Shown: positions 1-23,303 of the stretch, in pieces
Position numbering within the stretch: position 1 is the first letter of the stretch
Layout: the number at the start of each line of letters is the position of its first letter
Source of the DNA: Acinetobacter guillouiae CIP 63.46
GTDB lineage: Bacteria > Pseudomonadota > Gammaproteobacteria > Pseudomonadales > Moraxellaceae
DNA length: 64,000 nt
Direction: 5' to 3'
Assembly (NCBI RefSeq): GCF_000368145.1
Contig: NZ_KB849283.1
Coordinates: 1,762,324 to 1,826,323 of the forward strand
Made by a program: the position numbers and the translations under genes
The notes under the pieces: generated by a model
The model's database searches: none
Told to the model about the DNA's origin: nothing
Seen by the model: the letters and a program-made list of their open reading frames with translations, nothing else

Positions 1-227
1 TTTTGGCTAAAAGCTAAAGTTTCAAGTTCTTTGCTGTTTGAAGACTTTTGATCAGTATTACGTTCAACATAGCCTAATCCGCCTGATTCTCTTAAAAGCA
101 CATTCATACTTGACGTACTCTTATTTAAATTTTCAGTCGAATTATCATTCGCAAATGCCATACCTGCTAAACTAAATAAAGCAACAGATAAAATTGTTTT
201 TGAATATAACTGTTTAGTGATGTGCAT
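1..227 (-). CDS. copB: Copper resistance protein CopB (N-terminal part, cut by window edge)
   Basis: About 75 codons read leftward from ATG at 227 and run off the window. The start MHITKQLYSKTILSVALFSL is a typical signal peptide, ending near AGMAFA, so the product is exported. CopB/PcoB proteins are outer-membrane copper resistance proteins that follow the multicopper oxidase gene. Here the ATG overlaps the end of copA by 14 nt, which suggests one mRNA and coupled translation. The assignment rests on position and export signal, since the barrel domain lies outside the window. Confidence 0.7.
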   Translation of the reverse strand, partial: MHITKQLYSKTILSVALFSLAGMAFANDNSTENLNKSTSSMNVLLRESGGLGYVERNTDQKSSNSKELETLAFSQ

Positions 228-2124
228 GTTGATTCACTCCCTCATGGCTAGTTTGAGGTTGGGCAACGATACTTTTCGTATCATCATTGCTATCTACACT
301 TGCCACAATGAGTTTGTTCATCATTCCAGCGGCCATGTGATATAACAAATGGCAGTGGATAGCCCATTCACCTAATTCATCAGCAGTAAGTAAAGTTGTA
401 ACTGTTTTCCCCGGTGGCACAATGATGGTATGTTTATTCGGCATATTACTTGGATCTTGACCATTTTCAAGCTGCATAAACATACCGTGCAAGTGCATTG
501 GGTGAGCCATCATACTGTCATTCACAAATTTCAAGCGTATACGTTCCCCGTATTTCACTTTGAATGGTTCTGTTTCATTAAACTTCTTACCATTAATTGT
601 CCAAATATAGCGCTCCATGTTCCCACCAAGACGGATTTCCATTTCACGTTCAGGGGCACGAGTATCTGGTTGAGGCTTTAAAGATTGTAAGTCACTATAT
701 TGAAGTGCTTTTTGACCAACAGGTGTTGAAGCATTTGCCCAGCCATATACAACATCACCATTCTTTTCTTGTGTAGGTGCATTAGATGTAGTCATTTGCA
801 TGCCATGGTTCATACCTGACATAGATTGATCTTTTGAGCTGTCTGTCATAGACGACATATCGTGATCCATGCCTTTCATTGAAGACATATCTTGATCCAT
901 GCCTTTCATTGAAGACATGTCATGATCCATACCTTTCATCGAAGACATGTCATGATCCATACCTTTCATCGAAGACATGTCGTGATTCATGCCCTTCATT
1001 GAAGACATATCGTGATCCATGCCCGCCATAGACGACATATCATGCCCCATCCCCATATCTTCCATAGTTAATAAAGAACGAGGACGTGACTTCGGCATTT
1101 TGATTTGATTTATTGGAGGAGTATTTTCATCATGTAATGAACCAACTGAAAAGCCACTCCTATCAATTGATTCTGCTTCAATTTGATAATTTGATTGTTT
1201 GGGTTCTACAATAACATCATACGTTTCAGCCGTTCCTATTCTGAATTCATCAACAGGAACAGGTTTCACTGGCTGCCCATCTGCACTGACTACCGTCATT
1301 TTCAAGTTAGGGATTCTGACGTCAAAGAATGACATTGCTGAGGCATTAATGAACCGAAGACGTACTTTTTCACCCGTCTTAAAATTACCAATCCAATTTT
1401 GTTCTGGAGTCTTACCATTCATCAAAAAAGTATATTTTGTCACATCAGACATATCAGTCTTGAGCATTCGCATCTGGTTCCACATCGAACGGTCTTGCCA
1501 TGTTGCTTTTAAACCATCTTTTTTAATTTTTTTAAAAACATCAAAAACAGTTTCACGACGGTTCTGATAATAGTCAGCTTCTTTCTTTAGATTATTCATG
1601 ATTTTATCACTAGTTGAATCATGAAAATCTGAGAGCAATACAACATAATCCTTATCTGTTTTCTCAGCTACAGTTAAAGGTGTCCTATTTTTTGGGTAAA
1701 TGACTAACGGACCATACAAGCCCTCTTGCTCTTGACCTTTACTATGCGAATGATACCAATAGGTACCATTTTGGCGTACCTTAAACTTATATTCATAGGT
1801 CTTACTAGGGGCAATACCATCAAACTGATTAAATCCGGGTACGCCATCCATGATGCCCGGTAAAATTAAACCATGCCAATGAATAGAAGAATCTTGTTTT
1901 TTTAGCTTGTTATGGACACGAATAATAGCATCATCACCTTCCTCAAATTCAAGAAGAGGTGCAACAAATTTCCCGTTGACCGTAATTCGTTTTAAAGGCT
2001 TACCTGTGATATTCACCGTTTGCTCAGCGATTGTTAAATCATATTCTTTAACCGCTGCCACAACCCAAGTTGATGAAAATAAACCTACTCCTATTAAAAG
2101 GACATGACTTAATTTTTTAGACAT
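214..2124 (-). CDS. copA: Copper resistance multicopper oxidase CopA/PcoA type
   Basis: 636 residues. Oxidises Cu(I) in the periplasm and helps sequester copper. Copper ligand motifs are present: HWHG near residue 83, YWYHSHS near 123, and HPMHLHG and HCHLLYHMAAGM at the C-terminal end. A linker near residues 358-427 carries seven 10-residue Met/His/Asp repeats (consensus GMDHDMSSMK), a likely copper-binding tail. AGGTGA precedes the ATG. Odd: the signal peptide (MSKKLSHVLLIGVGLFSS) has no twin arginine, unlike many PcoA proteins that use Tat export. It is followed by copB with a short overlap and preceded by a Met/His-rich gene, probably in one operon. Confidence 0.93.
   Translation of the reverse strand: MSKKLSHVLLIGVGLFSSTWVVAAVKEYDLTIAEQTVNITGKPLKRITVNGKFVAPLLEFEEGDDAIIRVHNKLKKQDSSIHWHGLILPGIMDGVPGFNQFDGIAPSKTYEYKFKVRQNGTYWYHSHSKGQEQEGLYGPLVIYPKNRTPLTVAEKTDKDYVVLLSDFHDSTSDKIMNNLKKEADYYQNRRETVFDVFKKIKKDGLKATWQDRSMWNQMRMLKTDMSDVTKYTFLMNGKTPEQNWIGNFKTGEKVRLRFINASAMSFFDVRIPNLKMTVVSADGQPVKPVPVDEFRIGTAETYDVIVEPKQSNYQIEAESIDRSGFSVGSLHDENTPPINQIKMPKSRPRSLLTMEDMGMGHDMSSMAGMDHDMSSMKGMNHDMSSMKGMDHDMSSMKGMDHDMSSMKGMDQDMSSMKGMDHDMSSMTDSSKDQSMSGMNHGMQMTTSNAPTQEKNGDVVYGWANASTPVGQKALQYSDLQSLKPQPDTRAPEREMEIRLGGNMERYIWTINGKKFNETEPFKVKYGERIRLKFVNDSMMAHPMHLHGMFMQLENGQDPSNMPNKHTIIVPPGKTVTTLLTADELGEWAIHCHLLYHMAAGMMNKLIVASVDSNDDTKSIVAQPQTSHEGVNQHAHH
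841..1050 (-). repeat. Seven 30-bp tandem repeats inside copA (Met/His-rich tail)
   Basis: Seven consecutive 30-bp units encode GMxHDMSSMK-type decapeptides. Variants are GMG, GMD, GMN and one Q for H. The near-identity of neighbouring units at the DNA level points to recent expansion, so copy number may differ among strains and change copper capacity. Confidence 0.85.
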
Positions 2125-2212
2125 TTATTTCACCTATCTAATATAAAGATGGGGAGCTCAAGCAAACCAATTATTCGCTTTAATCTCCCCAATCTTTCAT
2201 TTATCGTATTTG
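2125..2212 (-). other. Intercistronic hairpin before copA
   Basis: The gap between the Met/His-rich gene and copA contains arms AAAGATGGGGAG and CTCCCCAATCTTT separated by about 28 nt. They can pair with one bulge. No T-tract follows in the minus direction, so it looks more like an mRNA processing or stability element than a terminator. Confidence 0.4.
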
Positions 2213-2563
2213 TTATTTATTTGATGTATTTGACATGTTCATCTTTGAGTGGTCCATGTTCATCATATTTGAATGATCCATATTACCCATTTTAGACTGA
2301 TCCATATTCATCATCTTAGAGTGATCCATCTGAGACATATCAGCCATATTGCCATGCTCATGCTGACTATGATCCTGTTGGGTTTTCTCATCATTCTTCA
2401 TATTACAAGGTTTTTGGCATTTCTCTGACATTTTTGAGTCCGCTTTAGTTTCAGTGACTACAGTGGTTCCCTGTTTAGCATCGGCTGCCCAAGACTGAGT
2501 TCCTGCAATTAAAGTTCCAATACACATAAGTGTAGTTAAGCTACGACGGAATAGAGTTTTCAT
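2213..2563 (-). CDS. Met/His-rich periplasmic copper-binding protein
   Basis: 116 residues from the ATG at 2563, chosen because GGAG lies 6 nt upstream; an in-frame TTG at 2575 is less likely. A signal peptide (MKTLFRRSLTTLMCIGTLIAG, cleavage near QSWA) is followed by a spacer with CxKPC and then a tail of MDHSKMMNM-like repeats rich in Met, His and Asp. Such tails bind Cu(I)/Cu(II) in the periplasm. It lies directly upstream of copA on the same strand and downstream of a copper-box-like operator. No enzymatic domain is visible; a scavenging or chaperone role is inferred from composition. Confidence 0.75.
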   Translation of the reverse strand: MKTLFRRSLTTLMCIGTLIAGTQSWAADAKQGTTVVTETKADSKMSEKCQKPCNMKNDEKTQQDHSQHEHGNMADMSQMDHSKMMNMDQSKMGNMDHSNMMNMDHSKMNMSNTSNK

Positions 2564-2630
2564 GTTTTGCTCCAAAAATTAACTTTATGTAAATACCTTA
2601 AAGGCCTTCACTAAACATCTATGTGACATG

Positions 2631-2652
2631 AAAATGACATTTTTGTAATCTA
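2631..2652. promoter_or_regulatory. CusR/CopR-like copper box in divergent promoter
   Basis: A 22-bp imperfect palindrome AAAATGACAT-tt-TTGTAATCTA resembles the E. coli CusR box (AAAATGACAA-nn-TTGTCATTTT) with the same 2-nt spacer. It lies between the Met/His-rich gene (minus) and copR (plus), as expected for an autoregulated divergent copper promoter. The spacing match and the second copy at 7338 support the call; binding is inferred. Confidence 0.65.
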
Positions 2653-2713
2653 CAACGAATCACGTATTTATAACGTTATTATGTTCTTAATGAGTGATAT
2701 GGGATTTTTATCA

Positions 2714-3397
2714 ATGAGAATCTTACTAGTTGAAGATGAACAAAAAACCGGTGACTACCTTAAACAAGGTCTATCTGAAGCTGGGTATATAACGGATTGG
2801 GTAACGGATGGATTATCTGGTAAACATCAAGCGCTTTCCGAAGAATATGACCTCATCATTTTAGATGTGATGCTTCCAAAGCTAGATGGTTGGGATATCA
2901 TTTATGATATCCGAAAAAGTGGCAAAACTATGCCTATTCTTTTTCTTTCAGCACGTGATCAAATTGAAGATCGTGTGAAAGGCTTGGATTTAGGTGCTGA
3001 TGATTATCTAGTCAAGCCTTTTGCTTTTGCTGAGTTATTAGCACGAATTAAAAGCTTACTCCGACGGGGACAACAAAAAGAAGATAGTAACCTTATTACA
3101 ATTGCTGATCTTGAACTTGATCTTCGTAAACGCCGCGTCACTCGCGCTGGGCAACGTATTGACTTAACAGCTAAAGAATTCGCGCTGATGGAATTATTTA
3201 TGCGTAGACGTGGTGAGATATTACCTCGTACGCTCATTGCCTCTCAAATATGGGACATGAATTTTGATAGTGATACCAACGTTGTAGAAGTCGCTATCAA
3301 ACGTTTGCGCAGTAAAATTGACAGTAATTTTAGCCCAAAGCTGATACAGAACATACGTGGAATGGGGTATGTTTTAGAGGTAGAAGATGACTCGTAA
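2714..3397 (+). CDS. copR: Copper response regulator CopR/CusR type (OmpR family)
   Basis: 227 residues from the ATG at 2714 ([10 protein letters not shown]); the longer frame from 2681 adds 11 non-conserved residues. The receiver domain has the acidic pair EDE, phospho-acceptor Asp in LIILDVMLP and the KPF lysine. The C-terminal winged helix ends in the usual [12 protein letters not shown] and RGMGYVLE segments. It partners the kinase whose ATG overlaps its end by 11 nt. It probably activates the copper operons through the boxes at 2631 and 7338. Confidence 0.93.
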
Positions 3398-4763
3398 ATT
3401 GTTTAATGCAATCAGCTTTCGTATAGCAATCATCTTTTCTCTTTCTACTGTTATCATCTTAATGATTATGGGGTTGGTTATTCACAAGCTCGTAATGCAT
3501 CATTTTGAAGCTCAAGACCGAACTCAATTAGAAGGCAAAATTCAACTTATAGAGAATCTACTTGAACAGAACCCATCTAACTCTCAAGAACTAAATTTAT
3601 ATTTAAAAGATGCCTTAATTGGACATCACGATCTGATTGTTCAGATTGAACGTCCAACAGGTCAAGTTATTTTTAGCTCAGCACCATCAGTAATTCATCC
3701 CCAAGCACTCAACAAATCAAAACAAGATCCATGGCTTGAATGGAAAATTAAAAATAAGACTTATCGTGGCTTAATTTATAAAAAGACTTTTGATCATAAT
3801 GACTCGTTTATATCAGCTCAGATTATTGTTGGAATCGATACCTCTGAGCATCTACATTTCTTAAATGACTTTAGACGTCAACTTTTATACATTGGATTTG
3901 TGGGTACAATTTGTTTAATGTTCTTAGGGTGGTTCGCAGCATGGCGAGGGCTACGTCCAGTACAACAAATGGCAAAAGTAGCAGAGGGTATCTCAGTCCA
4001 ACATCTTTCTGAACGTTTAGAAGTCGAAAATACTCCAACCGAACTTAAATCACTGGCTGTCGCTTTTAATGATATGTTAGATCGGCTAGAAGCCGCAGTA
4101 GAAAAACTTTCAGATTTTTCATCTGATCTTGCTCATGAAATAAGAACACCTATTAACAATTTGATGACTCAAACTCAAGTATGTTTATCTCGTAGTCGAA
4201 ATATTAATACTTATCAGGAAGTTCTATTTTCAAATTTAGAAGAGTTTGAGCATTTAGCTCGCATGGTCTCTGATATGCTATTTTTGGCAAAAGCAGAACA
4301 TGGTCTACATTTACCTAACCTACAACAGGTTAATTTAGTTAAAGAAGTTTCAGCATTATTTGATTTTTATGATGCTATCGCTGCTGAAAAGGGAATGTCA
4401 CTCGAACAGAGTGGTTCAGGTAGTATAAAAGGTGATCCTTTAATGCTACGCCGCGCTTTAAGTAATTTGTTATCGAATGCAATTAAATATGGCAAATCAG
4501 ATTCGGTCATCAAAATCACATGCCAACAAAACTTTGATACAACAACATTCATCATTGAAAATGAAAGCTCCCCACTATCATCAGAACAACTTAATCGGTT
4601 ATTCGATCGTTTTTATCGAACAGATGTATCTAGACAGAGAGTTGAAGAAGGTACTGGCCTTGGTTTAGCAATTACCAAATCTATTCTTGATGTGCATGGA
4701 GCTTCCATTCAAGCGACTTATAACGAGGGACATATTTCTTTTAAAATTATCTTTAAAAATTAG
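3387..4763 (+). CDS. copS: Copper sensor histidine kinase CopS/CusS type
   Basis: 458 residues. An N-terminal membrane helix (about 12-33), a periplasmic sensor of about 130 residues and a second helix (about 168-188) are followed by HAMP, a HisKA domain with phospho-acceptor His in [11 protein letters not shown], and an HATPase domain ([22 protein letters not shown]). This is the layout of heavy-metal sensor kinases that detect periplasmic Cu(I). It is cotranscribed with copR, with the start codon inside the regulator gene. Confidence 0.93.
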
Positions 4764-4800
4764 TGATATCTCGGTTATTAAGCACTCATTCTAATGATGC

Positions 4801-4834
4801 TTACCACTCATTAACTTACGCTAATGAGTGGTAA
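4801..4834. terminator. 13-bp perfect inverted repeat between convergent copS and ATPase genes
   Basis: TTACCACTCATTA and its exact complement flank an 8-nt loop. It sits between the ends of two convergent genes, where a bidirectional terminator is expected. The flanking T-tracts are weak. Confidence 0.5.
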
Positions 4835-4841
4835 GTCGTGA

Positions 4842-7205
4842 TTATTTTTGATGACGTAATCGTAAGGCATTACCAATTACCGATGCTGAGCTTAGGCTCA
4901 TTGCTAATGCAGCAATCATAGGCGAGAGTAACCAGCCAGTAAATGGATACAGTACACCAGCAGCCAAAGGGATACCTAATCCATTATAGAGGAAAGCAAA
5001 CATCAAGTTTTGTTTCATATTTTTAACAGTTGCCTCTGATAAAGAACGAGCAATTTCAATACCACGTAAGTCACCTTTTACTAATGTAACTTGGGCACTA
5101 TTCATTGCTACATCAGTACCCGTGCCCATTGCGATTCCAATATCAGCTTGAGCCAAGGCTGGTGCATCATTAATTCCATCACCAGCCATAGCAACAATTC
5201 TCCCTTCTTTTTGCAATTTTGTGACCAAATCTAATTTATCAGCAGGTTTAACCTCACCATAAACCTCACTAATTCCTAACTTAGCCCCAACTGATTTTGC
5301 TGTAGTTAGCCCATCACCTGTTGCCATGATGATTCTTAAACCTGAGTCTTCCAACGATAAAAGGGCCTCTGGAGTGCTTGCTTTGATTGGATCTGAAACT
5401 GCCAGAAGACCTAGCAGTTTTCCATCGGCTGCCAAATACATAACACTGGCACCTTCAGCTCTTAATACCTCTGCTTGTGGAATAAGAGTGTTAACAGATA
5501 TCCCTAATTGCTTCATCAGTGCCGTATTACCTAGAGCTAATTTTTGTCCGTTTATCTCTCCATTAACACCAATACCTGAACCTGATTCAAATGAAGTAGG
5601 TTTACTTAAAGTAAGATTTCGCTCACGGGCGGCACGTACAATTGCATTTGCTAAAGGATGCTCACTGCCCTGATCTAAACTCGCAGCTAAACGGAGGACT
5701 TCATTCTTTTCATATCCTGAAGTGGCTACTACTTTATTGAATGATGGTTGTCCTTCTGTCAAAGTTCCTGTTTTATCAATAATCAATGTATCAATTTTAC
5801 GTAGATTCTCTATTGCGGCAGCGTCTCGAAAAAGTACTCCATTTGATGCACCTCGCCCTGTTGCTACCATAATTGACATTGGCGTAGCTAATCCCAAAGC
5901 ACATGGGCATGCGATGATTAAAACAGCTACTGCATTGATTAATCCATAAACCCAACTAGGTTCAGGTCCGAATAGCCCCCACCCCAAAAAAGTTAGAACA
6001 GCAATACCTATAACCCCCATAACAAATCGTCCTGCAACATGATCCGCCATCCGCTGCATAGGTGCTTTTGAACGTTGAGCCTGAGCAACCATTTGCACGA
6101 TTTGAGAAAGTACGGTTGATGATCCAACTTTTTCTGATCGCATCACCAATGAACCATTCATGTTCATTGTTGCACCAATGACTTGATCACCCACACGTTT
6201 TGTAACTGGCACAGGTTCACCAGTTAACATCGATTCATCTACAGAGCTTGAACCTTCTGTAATGACTCCATCAACAGGAACTTTTTCACCGGGGCGTATC
6301 CGTAATAAATCGCCTACGTGTACATGAGATAGTGGAATATCTTCTTCTATACCATCAACACTGATTTTTCTTGCTGTTTTAGGTGCTAGCCCAAGTAGGG
6401 ATTTAATTGCCGCTGAAGTTTGGGAACGTGCTTTTAACTCTAGCACTTGACCTAACAATGTGAGAGAAATAATCGCTGCGGTCGCCTCAAAATACACAGC
6501 AACACGCCCCATAGATACAAATGAGTCTGGAAATACTTGAGGTACTATTGTTCCAACAAGGCTGTATATAAAAGCAGCTCCTGTACCAATTCCAATCAAG
6601 GTCCACATATTTGGACTCCGATTAAGGATTGACTGCCAACATCTCACAAAAAATGGCATTCCTGCCCACAAAACAATTGGTAAAGTCAGTACCAGTTCAA
6701 TCCAGCTTTGCACCTGCATTTCGAACCAGTTCAATTGATGACCAAACATTGCTAAGAAAACTACAATAATGGTTAGCGGTAAGGTCCACCAAAATCTATG
6801 CTTAAAATTCTTGAGTTCTGGGTTTTTATCAGCGTCATCTAAGTCAGGAAGTAAAGGCTCTAACGACATACCACAGATCGGACAATTTCCCGCATGGTTC
6901 TGTCTAATTTCAGGATGCATTGGACAAGTGTATATCGTGAAGGTATTAACATGAGCAGGCTGATTAACTTCATTTGAATCCTCACCATCCCTCTTTTGTG
7001 GTTCTTTTAACGTAACTACATTCTCAACTTTAGTAATATAAAAATGAGGATCACTTTTAAACTTTATGTGGCATTTCTCACTACAAAAGTAAAAAGTTCT
7101 ATTTTTAACTTCTTCATAAAACTTGGATGCTTCTGTAACTGTCATACCACAGACAGGGTCAGTAAGTCTGTTATTGAGTACTTTGTTTTCATGATGATGG
7201 TCCAT
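4842..7205 (-). CDS. Copper-translocating P1B-type ATPase
   Basis: 787 residues from the ATG at 7205. The upstream ATG at 7220 overlaps the ribosome-binding AAGGAGG, which is spaced correctly for 7205. The His-rich start (MDHHHEN) is followed by a YHS domain (DPVCGMTV, about 15-60) and a heavy-metal-binding motif ([19 protein letters not shown], about 95-120) instead of a classical CxxC HMA domain. Core motifs are the CPC metal site ([13 protein letters not shown]), DKTGTLT phosphorylation loop, SEHPLANAI and [10 protein letters not shown]. It exports Cu(I) from the cytoplasm. It is divergent from copC with a copper box between. Confidence 0.95.
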
Positions 7206-7337
7206 AAAAGCCTCCTTCATATTTAATTTTTAAATTAATAATTTCATTAAGATGGAAATAGACTCCCTCTTATTAGTTTGTTTAGTGATCATTGTTTTCT
7301 TTAAAGCCAGTGTACCACTTGTGGTTTTTTAATTTTT

Positions 7338-7359
7338 AAAATGACAAAAATGTAATTTT
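7338..7359. promoter_or_regulatory. CusR/CopR-like copper box between ATPase and copC
   Basis: AAAATGACAA-aa-ATGTAATTTT: the left half is identical to the E. coli CusR half-site, and the right half matches 8 of 10 with the same 2-nt spacer. It lies in the 280-bp divergent gap between the copper ATPase (minus) and copC (plus), so one site could control both directions. Confidence 0.7.
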
Positions 7360-7485
7360 GAAGTCATCGGGATGTTTCTCTCATCCTTTAATAATAAGCA
7401 TGAGAAAGGTGATGACCAAGCAACCAATTGATGCATTTCATTCGGTCATTACTGAGCCCAAGATTAGTTTAAAGAGGATGAAGAA

Positions 7486-7866
7486 ATGAAAATTTTCAAA
7501 AATAAAATGTCAGCTCTACGTAACACTCTCGTAGGTGCAACACTGATTGTTACTGCTTCAAGTGCATTTGCACACGTGAAACTTGAAAGTGCAATTCCTG
7601 CGATCAATGCTTCTGTAGCAAGTCAACCAAAAAACATAACACTCAATTTTGGTGAAGAAGTCATGCTAATGAACGTTAAGTTACTTGATGCCCAACGTAA
7701 GGATATCCCTTTGAACTACCAAATAACTCATGATATGAAAAAATCATTTGACGTAGCGGTTCCAAAACTAAAAAAAGGAAAATATACGGTGGTTTGGACC
7801 ACAATGGGTACCGATGGTCATAACATGAATGGTGAATATAATTTCACTATTAAATCGGCAAAATAA
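7486..7866 (+). CDS. copC: Periplasmic copper-binding protein CopC
   Basis: 126 residues: signal peptide with cleavage after SAFA, so that the mature chain starts HVKLESAIPA with the N-terminal His that ligates Cu(II) in CopC proteins. The usual beta-barrel signatures follow (LNFGEEV, and YTVVWTTMGTDGHNMNGEYNF with the C-terminal His ligands). GAGGATGAAGAA precedes the ATG. It is followed by copD, which probably receives copper from it. Confidence 0.93.
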   Translation: MKIFKNKMSALRNTLVGATLIVTASSAFAHVKLESAIPAINASVASQPKNITLNFGEEVMLMNVKLLDAQRKDIPLNYQITHDMKKSFDVAVPKLKKGKYTVVWTTMGTDGHNMNGEYNFTIKSAK

Positions 7867-7883
7867 CAATGAGTGAAAATAGT

Positions 7884-7912
7884 CAACATGCCAGCAGCTT
7901 GCTGGCATGTTG
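7884..7912. other. Strong hairpin between copC and copD
   Basis: A 13-bp perfect stem CAACATGCCAGCA with a 3-nt loop, 17 nt after the copC stop and 21 nt before copD. There is no T-tract, so it may lower readthrough or protect copC mRNA, giving more CopC than CopD. Confidence 0.55.
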
Positions 7913-7933
7913 CTATAATAAAGGGAGAGAAAT

Positions 7934-8815
7934 ATGATTCCTGAGACTTGGATATACGCAACATGGTTGGTTAAAGTCATTCTATATTTAGGGATTGCAT
8001 TTATTATAGGTGGTGCTTTCTGCTATTTCTTACTTGGACGTTATGTTGAAATAAAGGGAACTATTCTCAAATACATAACTATTGGTACAGGATTAGGTCT
8101 TTTTTCAAGTGTTCTCGGCTTCTTCATTCTTATAGGAAGTTTTGCCAACACTGGCCTTTCAGGTATGTGGGATAGCAACTATATAAATATACTAGTCAAT
8201 ACTCCTACTGGACATGTCTATATCATTCGATCAATCAGTTTTGCACTTTTACTCATATTTATGATAGTCAAACTTAGTAAAGGGACGATTGATATTTCCA
8301 AAACTGAAGGAGCAATCTTTACCATACTGCTCACACCAATCGTTTTAAGTTTTTCACAACTCGGACACGTCACGAATTTACCCTTATTCGCTCAAGCTTT
8401 GTTATCAATACATGTACTTGTAATGTCCTTATGGATGGGGTCGCTTTATCCATTATGGAAAACAAGCAAAAAAATTAATGGCTTACCACTTAAAGAACGT
8501 ATGCATCTATTTGGGCAAATAGCAGCCTTTATTGTAGGAATACTCATCGCTTGTGGTCTTAGTATTGCTTTATTACTCTTTAAAGATTTTAATACTCTAA
8601 TCAATACACCTTATGGGCATGGATTTATTATTAAAATATTATTTGTCCTAAGTATTTTATTGTTAGCAGCCTTTAACAAATGGTATTTCACACCTCGCTT
8701 ACAAGACCCGAAATTTGCGAAACAATTGGGCTATGCCATTTTATTTGAGATGTCATTAGGTCTATCAATTCTTTTAGCCACTGGTTATATCACCACTGTA
8801 GTCGGTATTGAGTAA
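7934..8815 (+). CDS. copD: Copper resistance membrane protein CopD
   Basis: 293 residues with about eight hydrophobic helices spread over the whole length. It belongs to the CopD/PcoD inner-membrane family, proposed to take up copper from CopC for cytoplasmic or enzyme use. GGGAGAG lies before the ATG. It sits between copC and a small His-rich gene starting 14 nt later, likely one transcript. Confidence 0.88.
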   Translation: MIPETWIYATWLVKVILYLGIAFIIGGAFCYFLLGRYVEIKGTILKYITIGTGLGLFSSVLGFFILIGSFANTGLSGMWDSNYINILVNTPTGHVYIIRSISFALLLIFMIVKLSKGTIDISKTEGAIFTILLTPIVLSFSQLGHVTNLPLFAQALLSIHVLVMSLWMGSLYPLWKTSKKINGLPLKERMHLFGQIAAFIVGILIACGLSIALLLFKDFNTLINTPYGHGFIIKILFVLSILLLAAFNKWYFTPRLQDPKFAKQLGYAILFEMSLGLSILLATGYITTVVGIE

Positions 8816-8829
8816 AAAAGGATCACGCT

Positions 8830-9099
8830 ATGACTTCATGGATGAAGTACAATTTATTATTTTTCATTTTTTTGAATACGACATCATGGGCTGAACCTAG
8901 CACTTCAAAAACGATTCGCTCCTTAGATGATACCGAATTACGTAATATCACTGATCATAATCATGGCGACACCAAAGTCGAAGAGAATAAAGACCATCAT
9001 TCTAAAGATAAACAACTACGTAATGAAGATAGTAGACAACAAAAAGTTATAAATGGATTAATGTTACAAAAGCCTAACGTACTACCGCCCTCCAAATAA
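8830..9099 (+). CDS. Small His-rich secreted protein of the copC-copD operon
   Basis: 89 residues. AAGGATC before the ATG and a 14-nt distance to copD indicate cotranscription. The signal peptide (hydrophobic LLFFIFLNTTSWA) is followed by a charged chain with several His (DHNHGD, DHHSKD) and no Cys or Met cluster. It is not a family I recognise; a periplasmic copper-binding accessory role is inferred only from location and histidines. Confidence 0.6.
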   Translation: MTSWMKYNLLFFIFLNTTSWAEPSTSKTIRSLDDTELRNITDHNHGDTKVEENKDHHSKDKQLRNEDSRQQKVINGLMLQKPNVLPPSK

Positions 9100-9202: not shown

Positions 9203-10099
9203 TTAATTCAGAGCTTGAACCGACTGTTGCAACCCTTTCTGAATATTCTGCAAATGAGTTAAATCATGTATTTGCTGATGCTGTTCTGATTTAGGCTCAT
9301 CCGTGTAAAACTCTTCAACAATATCTAGTCCCTCTTCTCCTCCCACCTCAAAACTGGCATTGCCGTAACCCTGCCGTGCCACATGATCTAACGCCTCCTG
9401 ATAAAACCCTGCTGCCTTGCTCTGCTCATCCATCTGTTTGGCTGACGCAATCGCATCTTTTAGGCTTGTGCCATCACGTAAAGTTAAGTCCACGTAATAG
9501 ATTGGAGTGCGGTAACTTTGCGTGGTGCTTTTACCTCTTAAAGTCAGTTGCAAAGGCAAACATGAAAGTAGATCACCTGATGCAGCATGGTAGTAACGCA
9601 GTCGTGCTGCCAAAGTGCGAATACTGTTAAAGCCCGTAGTTCTAAAGATGAATGTGCCAAACTCATCCGATTCATCTAGGTTGACGTAGAGTCTGCCATA
9701 GGGTTTACACAAACCACTTTGTGCCAATGGGCATAAATCAGGTGATGGGCATGGATGTTGCTCAATGCCATTTTGCCCCAGTCGCTGACAGGTTTCCCCA
9801 TTGCCTGAGCAGATTAAACGTCCTGTTTGTCGGTCAAATAAGCTGTACTCTGCCCGTAAGTTCAATTCAGGATCATTGAAGATCATACGGACGGGAATGC
9901 TTCTGAGTTTTTGATTCGGTGCTTTGGCACGTAGTTGCTCATCCAATGGATGTTTCACCCAACCATCCTTATTCTGAATTTGACTGGTAATGGTAAATTG
10001 GTCGTCCTTTTCAGGGAGTCGTTTGCCATTCTTTTCGACAATTTTGCCAATACTGATACGACCTAAAACGGGTGGTGTGATTGCTAAACCTTTAATCAT
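9203..10099 (-). CDS. Recombination-directionality-factor-like / 'hydrolase or metal-binding' island protein
   Basis: 298 residues from the ATG at 10099, which has GAGGA 6 nt upstream; the frame is open to 10228 but the extra residues look non-coding. It starts MIKGLAITPPVLGRISIG and carries four Cys in a central segment (TCQRLG..CPSPDLCPLAQSGLCKP, about residues 100-130), a possible metal site. From memory it matches the family usually named 'hydrolase or metal-binding protein' or RDF-like (Gp3-like), found next to DUF932 and YqaJ genes in integrative elements. The function is not proven. A hairpin-T-tract unit precedes it. Confidence 0.6.
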   Translation of the reverse strand: MIKGLAITPPVLGRISIGKIVEKNGKRLPEKDDQFTITSQIQNKDGWVKHPLDEQLRAKAPNQKLRSIPVRMIFNDPELNLRAEYSLFDRQTGRLICSGNGETCQRLGQNGIEQHPCPSPDLCPLAQSGLCKPYGRLYVNLDESDEFGTFIFRTTGFNSIRTLAARLRYYHAASGDLLSCLPLQLTLRGKSTTQSYRTPIYYVDLTLRDGTSLKDAIASAKQMDEQSKAAGFYQEALDHVARQGYGNASFEVGGEEGLDIVEEFYTDEPKSEQHQQIHDLTHLQNIQKGLQQSVQALN

Positions 10100-10146
10100 G
10101 TTGATGTCCTCTATAGTGATGTTTAAATTTGGGTAAATAAATTTTA

Positions 10147-10181
10147 GGCATAAAAAATCCCATACCTGTGGGGCATGGGAT
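10147..10181 (-). promoter_or_regulatory. Island hairpin-T-tract-ATG unit 1
   Basis: Read on the minus strand: ATCCCAT stem, 11-nt loop, stem, then T6 and ATGCC. It is a terminator-shaped hairpin 52 nt before the start of the gene at 10099. The ATG right after the T-tract opens a 19-codon frame (MPKIYLPKF...) whose stop lies 8 nt inside the next gene, suggesting a leader peptide and coupling. Confidence 0.55.
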
Positions 10182-10217
10182 CGGTTGGTTTGGGTAGTGG
10201 ATTTCGGTATCTCCGTC

Positions 10218-11366
10218 TTATCCACCATTGGGGTAAATCTGAAAGCGTCGTGTGCCTGCTTTGGTTTGTGGAAATTGCTGTAAGTATTCAGGATGCTGCT
10301 TAAGAAGTGCTTTACTGTCTAGGCTGATAGAGTCTTGCGCCTTTTTCCACGTCACCGCCCCACCTGTAAAGACCGCTCGCTCTGCATCTTTCATCAACAT
10401 TTGTAATCGATGTTTGAGTTCATCAAAATACTGTTGGTGTTGTTCAACTTTATGTCGCTCCTCTAACATTTGATTAAATAGGTAGTTGGCTTGTTCATTT
10501 TGGGTCAGGTCTTCTACTGTTAGTGGGATCTGCTCTGGGTAAAGTTGCTGCAAGGCTTTGGCTGCTGAATCCGAAGCATCTACACTTGGCGGAATACCTG
10601 TTTCAACACATTGCCAGAAGTGACGTTCTGCATTAATGATGTGTTGAATGACAGTCTCGTTACGAGTCACCTTATAGATTTTGGTTTCATGTCCACAGAT
10701 CAAGGCACAGATATGCGCTGCCTGTTTACCTGTCACAGCTAATTGATGCTGTACCTGACAGAGCACATATAAAGGCACACCATCTCGCCATAACTTAGAA
10801 CCATATTCCCCTACAGTTTTACATTCCAAGATTTGAACCTCTTCACTACCCACCACGGTATAGTCCAAATTGGCGAGCATAAAGTGTTTGTCTTCATCAG
10901 GGTGTTGTAACACTGCATTGACCCGACGCACCTTATTGTTGGTGTGCATGCTGTAGTATTCAGCCACCAAAGGTTCAAGTTGCTTGCCCCAATACAAGGG
11001 TGCATAGCCTGCACTTTCATCTTCAATGTTTTGTTGCATCCGTCCTGTTTTGATCATCCATAATTCCAACATCGACATATAGGGATTGAGTCCACAAGCG
11101 GTAGCGGCATCACTGCTGCCAATGCCCTGTTTTCTGACTTCGAGCCATTGCTGGTAATTGAGCTGTTTAGTATTGGCAAGGCGTTTGGCTGTAGGTGCTT
11201 TGGTTTTTCGTGGCTGTTTATTTTGAGCGTCGGTTGTGTGACTCTGTGGATGACGTTTACTTCGAGTTCCCACTTCCACTTGCTGAGTGGGTTGATCTAA
11301 GTGTGGTGAATAAGGCTGTAGTGGTGGATGGTTTAAACTGTTTTGAATTTGGGTATGGCTATTCAT
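10218..11366 (-). CDS. YqaJ-type viral recombinase / exonuclease
   Basis: 382 residues from the ATG at 11366 (AGGA about 9 nt upstream). An N-terminal basic, proline-rich stretch is followed by a lambda-exonuclease/YqaJ core: QWLEVRKQGIGSSDAATACGLNPYM (about 90-115), then LANLDYTVVG and the catalytic-like ILECKTVG (Asp, Glu-x-Lys of the PD-(D/E)XK fold). These nucleases make single-stranded ends for annealing-based recombination in phages and ICEs. Neighbours are a DUF932 protein and an RDF-like protein, so this looks like a recombination module. Confidence 0.8.
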   Translation of the reverse strand: MNSHTQIQNSLNHPPLQPYSPHLDQPTQQVEVGTRSKRHPQSHTTDAQNKQPRKTKAPTAKRLANTKQLNYQQWLEVRKQGIGSSDAATACGLNPYMSMLELWMIKTGRMQQNIEDESAGYAPLYWGKQLEPLVAEYYSMHTNNKVRRVNAVLQHPDEDKHFMLANLDYTVVGSEEVQILECKTVGEYGSKLWRDGVPLYVLCQVQHQLAVTGKQAAHICALICGHETKIYKVTRNETVIQHIINAERHFWQCVETGIPPSVDASDSAAKALQQLYPEQIPLTVEDLTQNEQANYLFNQMLEERHKVEQHQQYFDELKHRLQMLMKDAERAVFTGGAVTWKKAQDSISLDSKALLKQHPEYLQQFPQTKAGTRRFQIYPNGG

Positions 11367-11410
11367 ATTGAATATTCCTGTATGAGTAAAATCGTAAAAG
11401 CTAAATTTCG

Positions 11411-11444
11411 GGCATAAAAAAAGCCACATTTGGGGAAATGTGGC
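11411..11444 (-). promoter_or_regulatory. Island hairpin-T-tract-ATG unit 2
   Basis: A 9-bp perfect stem GCCACATTT with a 4-nt loop, then T7 and ATGCCC on the minus strand, 49 nt before the YqaJ-like gene. The ATG opens a 4-codon frame (MPEI-stop). Confidence 0.55.
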
Positions 11445-14593: not shown

Positions 14594-14860
14594 TTAGTTA
14601 GGCACTGAAACTTGACCATTCTTGGCATTGAAATAGACAAAGCGTGGACAACCACCTTGGAAGTTCACCGTGAAATTACGCCAGCCCCGATTACCCGGAT
14701 TGGTTTTATACATACATTGATATGCCCCACCACCCAAGTTACGCGCTTGGACAAAATACGCTTCACTTTGTGTGGCAAACCAGCCTGCATGTGTCCATGA
14801 GGCTGTGGCAAATAGAGTTGAAATCAGAGTGGTTTTTAGGAATGTGTTGATCATCATCAT
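14594..14860 (-). CDS. Small secreted hypothetical island protein
   Basis: 88 residues. The signal peptide (hydrophobic LKTTLISTLFATASW, cleavage near THA) is followed by a short Gly/aromatic-rich domain with two Cys (AYQCMYK, GGCPRF). AGAGAAA precedes the ATG cluster (three consecutive Met codons). It is the first gene of the leftward envelope operon. Unknown family. Confidence 0.55.
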   Translation of the reverse strand: MMMINTFLKTTLISTLFATASWTHAGWFATQSEAYFVQARNLGGGAYQCMYKTNPGNRGWRNFTVNFQGGCPRFVYFNAKNGQVSVPN

Positions 14861-15470
14861 TTTCTCTTTTTATAGGCATCACCTGTCTTGGTCTTGATCA
14901 GACGCGATGTTCCCCATGTCAGTTATGTTTGAATGAATTTCTCTGTTTTTTTGGAGTGTTATAGACGATAAAGCACACGAATCTACGACCCTCAAAACAG
15001 CATGAGAGATTCATCTTCATCTCGGTAATATGTACTTGAAAAAGTTTTATTCTTAGAAAGTCATCGACACAGCGATGCATGTACTACAAGCACAGCACGA
15101 GGTCTAATCACCGCTATGTTGTAGATAGGGTGCAAACATGAAAAAAGAGAAATGTAAAAGACGGTCTTGATGTAAGCGCATGGCGTACTCCTTGTGTGAA
15201 AGAGTTCTACCAAATTACTGCTAAATAATGGTGGCAGAACGAGAGAGGGTTAGCAGACTGACACACAAGAATCAGCACGCACAAGGCGTCCCTCCCTCGC
15301 CCTACCGCAACGGAGGAGGAACGAACGAGTTCGCCACCAAAAAATTACTTTTTTGATGTGCTTGTGTGTAAATGGGTCTGCTAAAACCCACTGACGATGT
15401 AGGTCAGCAGGCTAAGGATAATCTGCACGGGGTAGAGCGTCAAGCAAGTACAGGAATGTAATATGAATTT
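14861..15470. other. 610-bp non-coding stretch in the island
   Basis: No credible reading frame. The right two-thirds is unusually rich in GC for its surroundings and holds the nested complementary arms listed separately (15204-15407). The left part (14861-15180) probably contains the promoter of the envelope operon; I see no strong consensus box there. Confidence 0.6.
15204..15407. ncRNA. Candidate structured RNA or replication origin
   Basis: Nested pairing arms: 15204-15212 with 15232-15240 (8 of 9); 15247-15258 with 15376-15389 (AA bulge); 15261-15269 with 15361-15369 (9 of 9); 15285-15288 with 15332-15335; CU-rich 15289-15298 with 15311-15320; 15391-15395 with 15403-15407. So a long two-part stem encloses an inner arm, flanked by two small hairpins. 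It lies just downstream of a rolling-circle-like replication gene pair. It could be a non-coding RNA or a structured origin; strand is unknown. Confidence 0.45.
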
Positions 15471-16442
15471 TTAGCGTCGTACGGGTGCACCGTGAAACCA
15501 TTTAAAACCTTTAGGATAAACACATATCCTATTGGCTAAACCTTCGCTACTGGTTTCTCGATCAGGCATCTCGTCTAAAGCACTTAAAGGGTCTAAAGCT
15601 TGATCCAGAGCATTCCTTTGAATAATCAGTTGATATTCGTCTTCATGTTGATATTGCTGGAAATCTACCAGTGGACAAAACGAAATCCCCCTATATTGAG
15701 TTACCCTTTTCCAGCAAATATCTATTTCTCGACTATACACTGAAGGTTCGCCATACAATAAGGGATCGAGGGTCAGAAAGAATTTCACAACATAGCGTTG
15801 ATCAACCCGAATAACCTGATAAAACGTAAATACGACTTGGGCGTTATACCAAGAGAGTTGTTTGAGCTGCTTTTGAAAATGATAAAACAGCTTATTCCAA
15901 TCAGAGATATTAACGTATTGATTGTGGAGTCCTTCTAGATTTAATTCAAATTTCAAATCAACAGCATTGGGATATATTTTACTCACCGTACAATAGGATT
16001 CACGAATTTTGTCGATCTGCTTCGTGTAATACTGATTATACTGTTGGAGTTGTTCTAAAAAGCTTGCACTTTTAAACAGCTTATTTAGTCGCTTCAAAAT
16101 TTTATCAATATGTGCCGATGCTTGATCATTATAATGAGCAGCTGTGGTAGCACTCTCCATTGTAAAATAGGGAACACCTGCTTCCAGTAATACACTGCTA
16201 TAAGCACGATAAAAAGCATCCACCCAAAATGAAAACTTGTGCTGCCCTCCACAAGCCACCATCAGGATACGCCAATCATCAAAGTAGCTCATCAGTGCTT
16301 GTTTTAACTCCTGATTTAAAGCATTTTGATAATCGTTGAACTCCATACCTTCTGGAACCCGCTCAAACTTGAGTCGTTTGTAATGCTCAATCATGTTCTG
16401 TTCTAAGCGTACAGCTGTAAATTCTAATGCTAAATTACTCAT
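15471..16442 (-). CDS. Hypothetical partner of the replication-like gene
   Basis: 323 residues from the ATG at 16442, which has AGGA 6 nt upstream; an ATG at 16484 directly abuts the previous stop (TGA-ATG) and is an alternative. Soluble, rich in aromatic residues and Gln, with a predicted alpha-helical middle (KRLNKLFKSASFLEQLQQYNQYYTKQIDKI). No motif I can name. Its size and tandem position after the Gp2/YagK-like gene suggest a related or cooperating replication/maintenance protein. Confidence 0.6.
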   Translation of the reverse strand: MSNLALEFTAVRLEQNMIEHYKRLKFERVPEGMEFNDYQNALNQELKQALMSYFDDWRILMVACGGQHKFSFWVDAFYRAYSSVLLEAGVPYFTMESATTAAHYNDQASAHIDKILKRLNKLFKSASFLEQLQQYNQYYTKQIDKIRESYCTVSKIYPNAVDLKFELNLEGLHNQYVNISDWNKLFYHFQKQLKQLSWYNAQVVFTFYQVIRVDQRYVVKFFLTLDPLLYGEPSVYSREIDICWKRVTQYRGISFCPLVDFQQYQHEDEYQLIIQRNALDQALDPLSALDEMPDRETSSEGLANRICVYPKGFKWFHGAPVRR

Positions 16443-16484
16443 GTGTTGTCCTATGAATGAATTGATTTCATAGAACTGGCACAT

Positions 16485-21812: not shown

Positions 21813-23045
21813 TTATTCTTTATTTACATTTAATTCTTGATCAGCAAGTAATGATTCCAAATAATCAGCCCACTCCTGCATCATTTCACGACGGTTGTTT
21901 AAAAACTTAGTTCGATTATAAGCAGTGCCATTGTTGTCTTTTACCTTATGGGCTAACTGGTGTTCAATAAAGTCTACACGCTGTTCCAGAATTTCATCCA
22001 GCATGGTACGTGCAGTTGCCCTAAAGCCATGTGCTGTCTGTTCACCACCATAGCCCAAGCGTTTTAAAGCGGAGTTAATGGTATTGTCAGAAATAAAGGT
22101 TTTACCATCCCGCCCAACAAAAATGTATTCGCTGTATGGGTGCAGATCAATAATTGACTCAATCAAGTCAAAAGCTTGATCTGATAATGGCACAATATGC
22201 AGTTGCTTAGTTTTACTGGCTGTAAACTTAAAGCAACGCTCTTCACGATAGAAATACTCCTTTTTCAGCTTGCGGATCTCCCCAGGTCGCTGAAATGTCA
22301 GCACAGAGATTTTTAATGCTACCTGCGTGGTCAGTAGGCAACGTGTATAAAGTTTGGAGTAGTTCCAGATTTTATTCAGCATCGGAGCCAAGTCCTGCTC
22401 TTCTGTCACGGCTGCAAAGTTTCCACCCTGTGGTTTTGGTAATTCAATATCTTCAATGGGATTGTACTGGATCAGCTTTTTTTTACGCGCTGATTTAAAG
22501 ATCTGGTTGAGGTCTGATTTAAGCCGTTTGGCAACAGACAGAGCCCCACGCTCGATAATGCGCTTAAAAACCTTAACCTCAAGGATTTCTAAGGTAAGCT
22601 GTGGAAAGGTTAAATCACCAACGTAGGGATAGACATCGTGCTTTAAACGACGGACTGTTTCCTCATCTTGCTTTTGCTCTAGCTCACGTTTATACAACCA
22701 TGCTTCCGCAACGATACGAAAAGTATTTTCAGCTTCTTTCTGTTTCTGAGACTTGGTTTCAATCCGCTCCATTGCTGGATCAATGCCCTGCTTGATGAGT
22801 TTCTTATATTCATCACGAATCGTACGGGCATCATCCAGTGAAACTTCAGGGTAAGTCCCTAAAGATAAATCGTTACGCTTACCTAAGAATGGACGTGTGT
22901 AATTGAAGATCCAGTACTTGCTACCGCTTTGGTCTATACGCAGATACAGATTTCCCCCATCTGACAGCTTATACATCTTGTCAGGATCAGGTTTAGTTTT
23001 TTTAACTTGTAAAGCACTAAGCTTATTGATTCCACGAGTCGTCAT
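21813..23045 (-). CDS. P4-type tyrosine recombinase (site-specific integrase)
   Basis: 410 residues. The N-terminal DUF4102-like arm (MTTRGINKLSALQVKKTKPDPDKMYKLSDGGNLYLRI) and SAM-like domain (EAWLYKRELEQKQ) precede a complete catalytic domain: Arg in FQRPGEIRKL, HGFRATARTML (His-x-x-Arg) and the nucleophile Tyr in GTAYNRTKFLNNRREMM. These enzymes integrate islands into tRNA 3' ends, and a tRNA-Ser lies 170 bp upstream in the same orientation. There is no clear ribosome-binding site; the ATG overlaps the stop of a 4-codon frame (MSEL) that begins after a hairpin T-tract. Confidence 0.93.
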   Translation of the reverse strand: MTTRGINKLSALQVKKTKPDPDKMYKLSDGGNLYLRIDQSGSKYWIFNYTRPFLGKRNDLSLGTYPEVSLDDARTIRDEYKKLIKQGIDPAMERIETKSQKQKEAENTFRIVAEAWLYKRELEQKQDEETVRRLKHDVYPYVGDLTFPQLTLEILEVKVFKRIIERGALSVAKRLKSDLNQIFKSARKKKLIQYNPIEDIELPKPQGGNFAAVTEEQDLAPMLNKIWNYSKLYTRCLLTTQVALKISVLTFQRPGEIRKLKKEYFYREERCFKFTASKTKQLHIVPLSDQAFDLIESIIDLHPYSEYIFVGRDGKTFISDNTINSALKRLGYGGEQTAHGFRATARTMLDEILEQRVDFIEHQLAHKVKDNNGTAYNRTKFLNNRREMMQEWADYLESLLADQELNVNKE

Positions 23046-23213: not shown

Positions 23214-23303
23214 TGGCGGAAGCGGTGAGATTCGAACTCACGGAGGACTCACACCCTCGTCGGTTTTCAAGACCGGTGCATTAAACCGCTCTGCCACGCT
23301 TCC
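23214..23303 (-). tRNA. tRNA-Ser (anticodon UGA)
   Basis: 90 nt including encoded CCA. Acceptor GGAAGCG / CGCTTCC, anticodon loop CTTGAAA (TGA), a long variable arm as in Ser tRNAs, and T-loop GTTCGAATC. Its 3' end faces the island integrase and is the likely attachment site. Confidence 0.96.

Follow-up and report, generated by a model that had tools for sequence, protein, structure and literature searches.

The structured non-coding region at 15180-15460 of the window (the whole 64,000-nt stretch of DNA analysed here) holds, judged by its sequence and its alignment with relatives, a C4 antisense RNA, a member of a described family of small regulatory RNAs originally known from phage P1, encoded on the minus strand. 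Very probably this region serves an integrated mobile island as its immunity switch, silencing an operon that encodes DUF932 and YqaJ proteins. The earlier note had correctly proposed a regulatory non-coding RNA here; its further suggestion that the RNA was undescribed was rejected because the Rfam score lies above the curated cut-off, and the RNA is of the same kind as the Group 1 sRNAs of Acinetobacter baumannii. As the C4 family is described and common in the genus, the window copy belongs to a known kind of RNA: as a C4 immunity switch it is ordinary, though complete and well supported, and the surprising lead lies in its relatives. For the window, a named switch, two targets and a likely controlled operon replace a structure of unknown kind, and all of them are testable.

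The Rfam search matched the C4 antisense RNA family (RF01695) at 15312-15227 on the minus strand, scoring 56.2 bits where the gathering threshold is 45, over the full model (1-87), and reported no match on the plus strand; none of 14 control genomes matched C4. The family is listed, as 'c4 antisense RNA' next to a 'c4-a1b1' motif, in the passages available from Weinberg 2010 (PMC2864571). With a stricter filter, which loses weak matches, C4 was found in at least 145 of 175 Acinetobacter genomes and, in a sample of the family with Acinetobacter included, in at least 121 of 299. The earlier note had suggested folding both strands against shuffles and looking for compensatory changes, and both checks came out in favour of a structured RNA. 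Folding of the minus strand gave a z of -5.11 (0 of 200 shuffles as low) and that of the plus strand -2.77 (2 of 200); a plus-strand structure was dropped in view of this weaker fold and of the Rfam match on the minus strand only. In an alignment of 20 chosen sequences, the window copy (L004) among them, 98.5% of 517 cells pair, and in the three C4 stems 16 of the 26 pairs show changes on both sides, with a covariation score of 0.470 compared to 0.243 in shuffles (0 of 500 shuffles reached the observed values). G-U pairs are frequent in the minus-strand alignment; on the opposite strand they would turn into A-C mismatches, so the pairing needs the minus-strand RNA. Folded alone, the 86 nt reached a minimum-energy z of -4.21 and kept the first and third stems, the second stem being missing. 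A covariance model of our own (R1), built from 20 Acinetobacter copies, scored 65.6 bits at the c4 gene of phage P1 and 64.1 bits at that of P7; its score at the window is not independent, since L004 is part of the model.

The elements of the switch, with a' and b' named after the P1 record AF234172 (b' being the loop of the third stem and a' the segment that follows this stem), are listed here in the order in which the minus strand would be transcribed:

15415..15443, minus strand: candidate sigma-70-like promoter, TTGACG-17-TATCCT (-35 at 15443-15438, -10 at 15420-15415)
15391..15407, minus strand: 5' hairpin CUGAC-CUACAUC-GUCAG, read from the sequence
15378..15384, minus strand: upstream target a1, TTAGCAG, facing a'; the same letters stand at the equivalent place in the phage P7 sequence
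15361..15369, minus strand: upstream target b1, ACACACAAG, facing b'
15227..15312, minus strand: C4 antisense RNA (RF01695), matched by Rfam
15230..15306, minus strand: predicted mature C4, GGU...GCCACC, 77 nt, its ends taken from the alignment with P1
15261..15269, minus strand: antisense segment b', loop of the third stem, CTTGTGTGT
15250..15256, minus strand: antisense segment a', CTGCTAA
15204..15240, minus strand: alternative hairpin, C4 3' arm (15240-15232) with 15212-15204, a2 lying in the loop region
15218..15224, minus strand: downstream target a2, TTAGCAG
15191..15198, minus strand: downstream target b2, CACACAAG, overlapping the Shine-Dalgarno sequence AAGGAG (15193-15188)
15104..15181, minus strand: leader ORF of 25 codons, MRLHQDRLLHFSFFMFAPYLQHSGD, starting at 15181

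All the main pieces described in the earlier note, namely the complementary arms 15261-15269/15361-15369 and 15251-15258/15376-15383 and the hairpins 15204-15240 and 15391-15407, are present at these coordinates, as is an excess of GC (48.4%, compared to 42.5% in the 1 kb to the left and 37.9% in the 1 kb to the right). Its reading of them as nested stems of a single fold did not hold: the long arms are instead pairs of antisense and target, on the minus strand. The GGCG/CGCC and CU-rich/GA-rich arms that it placed inside exist as letters but fall outside the conserved structure.

The promoter match is weak on its own, because the scan found one site where 1.2 were expected in shuffles; inspection by eye showed similar TTGAC...TATCCT letters ahead of many relatives among the matches listed. 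The hairpin at 15391-15407 likely corresponds to what is called 'Region 1' in the Group 1 sRNAs of A. baumannii, for which passages of PMC5320573 describe the loop motif CUACAUU, though the minimum-energy fold of 15412-15370 contains another, longer pairing in its stead. A search of 14900-15600 gave no terminator-like site. Downstream of C4, 15212-15204 mimics the C4 5' arm, and the stretch 15204-15240 folded alone beat its shuffles by a modest margin only (z -1.84, 12 of 200). Among 60 distinct arms, the longest helix of the C4 3' arm averaged 8.2 bp with its own downstream stretch and 6.6 bp with those of others; helices of at least 7 bp were formed by 51 of the 60 own pairs and by 47% of non-cognate ones (0 of 10,000 permutations). 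The 3' arm can pair either inside C4 or with the mimic, a possible switch of processing or folding.

A comparison of the b' loops with the stretches around them indicates that, in Acinetobacter, C4 varies in step with each copy's own cis sites. The loci comprised the best C4 matches of the genus search (30), 80 listed places picked by eye with near-duplicates and contig edges left out, and the matches to C4 in two high-copy genomes and in the genome that holds the window. R1 was run on 108 of the 115 sources (leaving out the window locus L004 as well as L012-L014, L023, L026 and L028) and gave 123 matches, in 108 of 108 sources; for the swap tests one locus was kept per distinct loop or arm. 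Over 60 distinct loops, the longest exact match of b' to its own upstream stretch averaged 7.5 nt, compared to 4.7 nt at other loci, and reached at least 7 nt in 45 of 60 own pairs and in 4.9% of non-cognate ones. The own downstream stretch gave 7.15 nt compared to 4.63 nt, with at least 7 nt in 37 of 60 and in 5.9%, respectively; matches under 7 nt accordingly make up 15 of 60 loops upstream and 23 of 60 downstream. Own-site matching was equalled in 0 of 10,000 permutations on either side, the permutations ignoring relatedness and the site windows having been chosen after inspection of the site data. The a-site reads TTAGCAG in the window and P7, and TTGACAG in P1 and other Acinetobacter copies.

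We also compared the strength of the pairing, using duplex energies, since co-folding gave values of about 0 owing to the program's inability to form loop-loop pairs. For the window's b1 the strongest duplex of all 60 loops was with its own loop; for b2, 2 of the 59 other loops gave a stronger one. The window's genome carries four C4 loci, and in a 4 by 4 duplex table each b' preferred its own upstream and downstream stretches, with -7.9 to -13.1 kcal/mol on the diagonal and nothing stronger than -7.2 off it. One of the four, L003, which lies ahead of a TetR gene, lacks an exact site downstream. Another, L002, is a second locus of the window's type with a different b', TTTCTTTGTTA, and with the same leader peptide as on the A. 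johnsonii plasmid NZ_CP068198. A search for the window's specificity in viral contigs yielded 98 pattern matches to the downstream site; 80 of the 98 were scanned with our own C4 model and contained 0 C4, so the pattern matches look like chance.

Downstream of the leader lie eight ORFs, from 14860 to 9203, of which the first encode small proteins without family matches and the later ones include three with recognizable families:

14594..14860, minus strand: first operon gene, 88 aa, function unassigned; an 81% identical copy stands in the same order on NZ_CP068198
12023..13078, minus strand: DUF932 / TIGR03299 phage/plasmid-like protein
10218..11429, minus strand: YqaJ / lambda-exonuclease family protein
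9203..10228, minus strand: Gp3-like protein (recombination directionality factor-like family), by Pfam

Seven of the eight genes (all but a 90-aa ORF) occur in the same order after a C4 on the A. johnsonii plasmid NZ_CP068198, and none of the eight matched icd or ant1/ant2 in Pfam or PHROG. The earlier note's 'envelope operon' could fit the first genes only, given the DUF932, YqaJ exonuclease and Gp3-like proteins that follow. Of its replication gene pair, the gene lying upstream matches YagK/YfjJ weakly (E 5e-6), and the partner at 15471-16484 has no Pfam match. One end of the island is marked by a tyrosine integrase (21813-23045), which adjoins tRNA-Ser (23214-23303), and by an AlpA-like gene whose score of 20.8 falls short of the cut-off of 21. 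Within the window no sequence repeated the tRNA-Ser end convincingly enough to be a second attachment site, and a 22-nt probe (up to 2 mismatches) occurred at two places in the genome, one of them tRNA-Ser itself. Nine island proteins gave no match to defence-system models. To the left of the operon, 214-9099 carries genes of a copper-resistance type (a CopD domain, with copper-oxidase-like and P-type ATPase-like ORFs judged by eye), possibly as island cargo. Elsewhere in the window, three tRNA-Glu genes (34372, 36308 and 39309) of equal Rfam score are spaced by ~2 and ~3 kb, a possible sign of duplication or of insertions between the copies.

The closest counterpart of this arrangement is the immI region of phages P1 and P7, which encodes the same three-stem RNA, 77 nt by alignment and also the length annotated for c4 in both phages. 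The P1 record annotates a1, b1, c4, a2, b2 and icd in that order, the upstream sites as putative; this order, ending in a short ORF and with b2 at a ribosome-binding site, is that of the window, and the a-site letters of P7 are identical to the window's. The window differs from P1 and P7 in its b' specificity, in the pairing of the 5'-arm mimic (9 bp, compared to 5 contiguous bp in P1 and P7) and in what follows, which is icd/ant genes in P1 immI and DUF932, YqaJ and Gp3-like proteins here. In A. baumannii AB5075, the available passages of Weiss 2016 (PMC5320573) describe 21 C4-like Group 1 sRNAs, which are transcribed; among those that have a 5' region, coverage goes up at GGW, known in P1/P7 as the RNase P site, with two exceptions. 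The window copy shares with them the C4 structure, a 5' hairpin loop of the CUACAUU type, the GGW start as aligned and presumably the genus, whereas it lies in an island and keeps both pairs of cis targets. Two further systems, as described in passages of PMC4825925, are similar in part: the CI RNA of the satellite phage P4, compared by layout, is likewise a single RNA flanked by two complementary targets and acts via transcription termination, and the IsrK/STnc1160/orf45/anrP system of Gifsy-1, compared by description, has a short upstream RNA, a processed complementary RNA of ~80 nt, a short ORF and an operon but, unlike the window, regulates anrP.

Family membership, the sites, their coevolution and the synteny are established by the analysis above, and from them we infer promoter use, processing, repression, early termination and superinfection immunity as follows. 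Transcription of the minus strand would start from the promoter at 15443-15415 and run through a1/b1, C4 and a2/b2 into the 25-codon leader and then the operon at 14860-9203, which places a1/b1 and C4 in one presumed transcript. C4 would be released from it, probably through RNase P cleavage at GGU (15306), as an RNA of 77 nt, and its a' and b' segments would pair with a2/b2 in further transcript molecules, covering the Shine-Dalgarno sequence of the leader. Left untranslated, the leader would allow transcription to stop early, keeping the recombination operon off, and pairing with a1/b1 may provide a second point of early termination or of autoregulation. It is the layout shared with P1 that places the 25-codon leader under C4. 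In P1, early termination is Rho-dependent. C4 of this phage stops antirepressor synthesis by pairing near the ribosome-binding site, according to passages of PMC12197685, PMC8546580 and PMC8198154.

Of 163 named C4 units, 155 distinct ones were classified by what follows them, and 8 were dropped as duplicates or for their short flanks. A TetR-like gene lies within 1,300 nt downstream in 67 units (two representatives of these genes match PF00440), a small ORF resembling a 94-aa lipoprotein-like protein in 16, and neither in 72, the 'other' class. Examples of C4 units in TetR leaders, from A. baumannii-like genomes, are L217, L222-L225, L227-L230, L232-L234, L244, L249, L251 and L254-L258. Excluding 10 TetR-linked units with no a1 site, mostly inner units of arrays, a2 was missing in 33 of 57. 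In these 33 units (21 distinct loops) the upstream cognate match was retained, at 7.38 nt compared to 4.30 nt and at least 7 nt in 16 of 21 (0 of 10,000 permutations), while the downstream match was no longer distinguishable (4.33 compared to 4.26 nt; 3,630 of 10,000 permutations).

This upstream pairing in TetR-linked relatives that have lost the downstream site, together with the use of flanking seqA and seqC by the P4 CI RNA (passages of PMC4825925), would suit a different control of the window's operon, in which C4 acts mainly on the nascent a1/b1 stretch, transcription is stopped before the operon and the downstream sites are minor. We regard this as rather unlikely here, as a2 is kept in the window and in all 72 of the 'other' units and b2 in 67 of them. 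Furthermore, anti-Shine-Dalgarno letters, loosely defined, occur in 35 of 43 b' loops of the 'other' class (CCT itself in 28 of 43), compared to 4 of the 21 loops of a2-less units, and their presence in the 'other' loops fits translational control of the leader.

Action of C4 on host messenger RNAs, suggested for the A. baumannii relatives in passages of PMC5320573, would accord with the abundance of the relatives and the variability of their target segments; yet the cis sites of each locus follow this variation, so that a host target is not needed, and we consider such co-option in trans very improbable for the window. Even less credible is the origin of replication that the earlier note had offered as its other option, structured and serving the excised island. 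The YagK/YfjJ-like gene upstream would suit it, but no support was found for an origin at the folded region, whose arms are accounted for by the Rfam identity, the covariation through G-U pairs on the minus strand and the coevolution of the targets.

Beyond the window, the TetR-linked C4 loci appear to be the TTTR genes of the published opacity (opaque/translucent) switch of A. baumannii. In the available parts of PMC9802203, the switch of AB5075 is described as 11 TTTR genes and one pseudogene; set against the positions of the Group 1 sRNAs by a fitted linear map, the TTTR gene numbers fell a mean of 10.7 kb from those positions, compared to 90.5 kb for random sets fitted likewise (minimum 28.1 in 300). 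This comparison of positions is coarse but points to shared loci, and by it the TetR-linked class appears to include the Group 1 sRNAs. We call genomes 'A. baumannii-like' because they carry ~20 C4 copies each, a number like that of AB5075, and because records named A. baumannii have 12-14 places. Reportedly, one paper treats Rho in the A. baumannii opacity switch. The term 'C4 antisense' has 0 occurrences in the available main text of the opacity-switch study (PMC9802203), and a connection between C4 and the switch was not found in passages of related papers. We tentatively suggest, as an idea slightly more apt to fail than to hold, that C4 leads two lives in Acinetobacter: one as an island immunity RNA with both targets, as proposed for the window, and one in the TetR leaders of A. 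baumannii-like genomes, where many copies have lost the downstream target and the anti-Shine-Dalgarno letters, as a self-addressed transcription attenuator that gives rise to stochastic on/off expression of each TetR gene. If the TetR link is true, an inherited phage immunity circuit would be a possible mechanism of random TetR switching in A. baumannii.

Several other arrangements of C4 were seen among the loci. At L006:1009-1587, L015:1000-1587, L016 and L092:3138-3682, tandem arrays hold as many as four units that differ in their b' loops, ~85 nt apart in three arrays; they are possibly stacks of immunity specificities, and the inner units tested had no clear targets of their own. At L220, L237, L243, L245, L248 and L252, C4 precedes the small lipoprotein-like ORF (94-106 aa), which had no Pfam match in the one case tested. 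Records named 'Acinetobacter phage MD-2021a' (H21-H40, CAKLQF/CAKLQH) contain many C4 matches; the one region opened carried ordinary genes of a chromosomal type, and the records may be bacterial contigs. Finally, the main unit is accompanied by a second and divergent one (37-42 bits), ~0.5-1.3 kb away on the opposite strand, at L032:201-284, L041:2494-2575, L055:4779-4859, L056:2841-2924, L057:4791-4873, L086:4176-4257 and L087:4144-4225; this second unit has upstream and downstream targets of its own and a different a-site.
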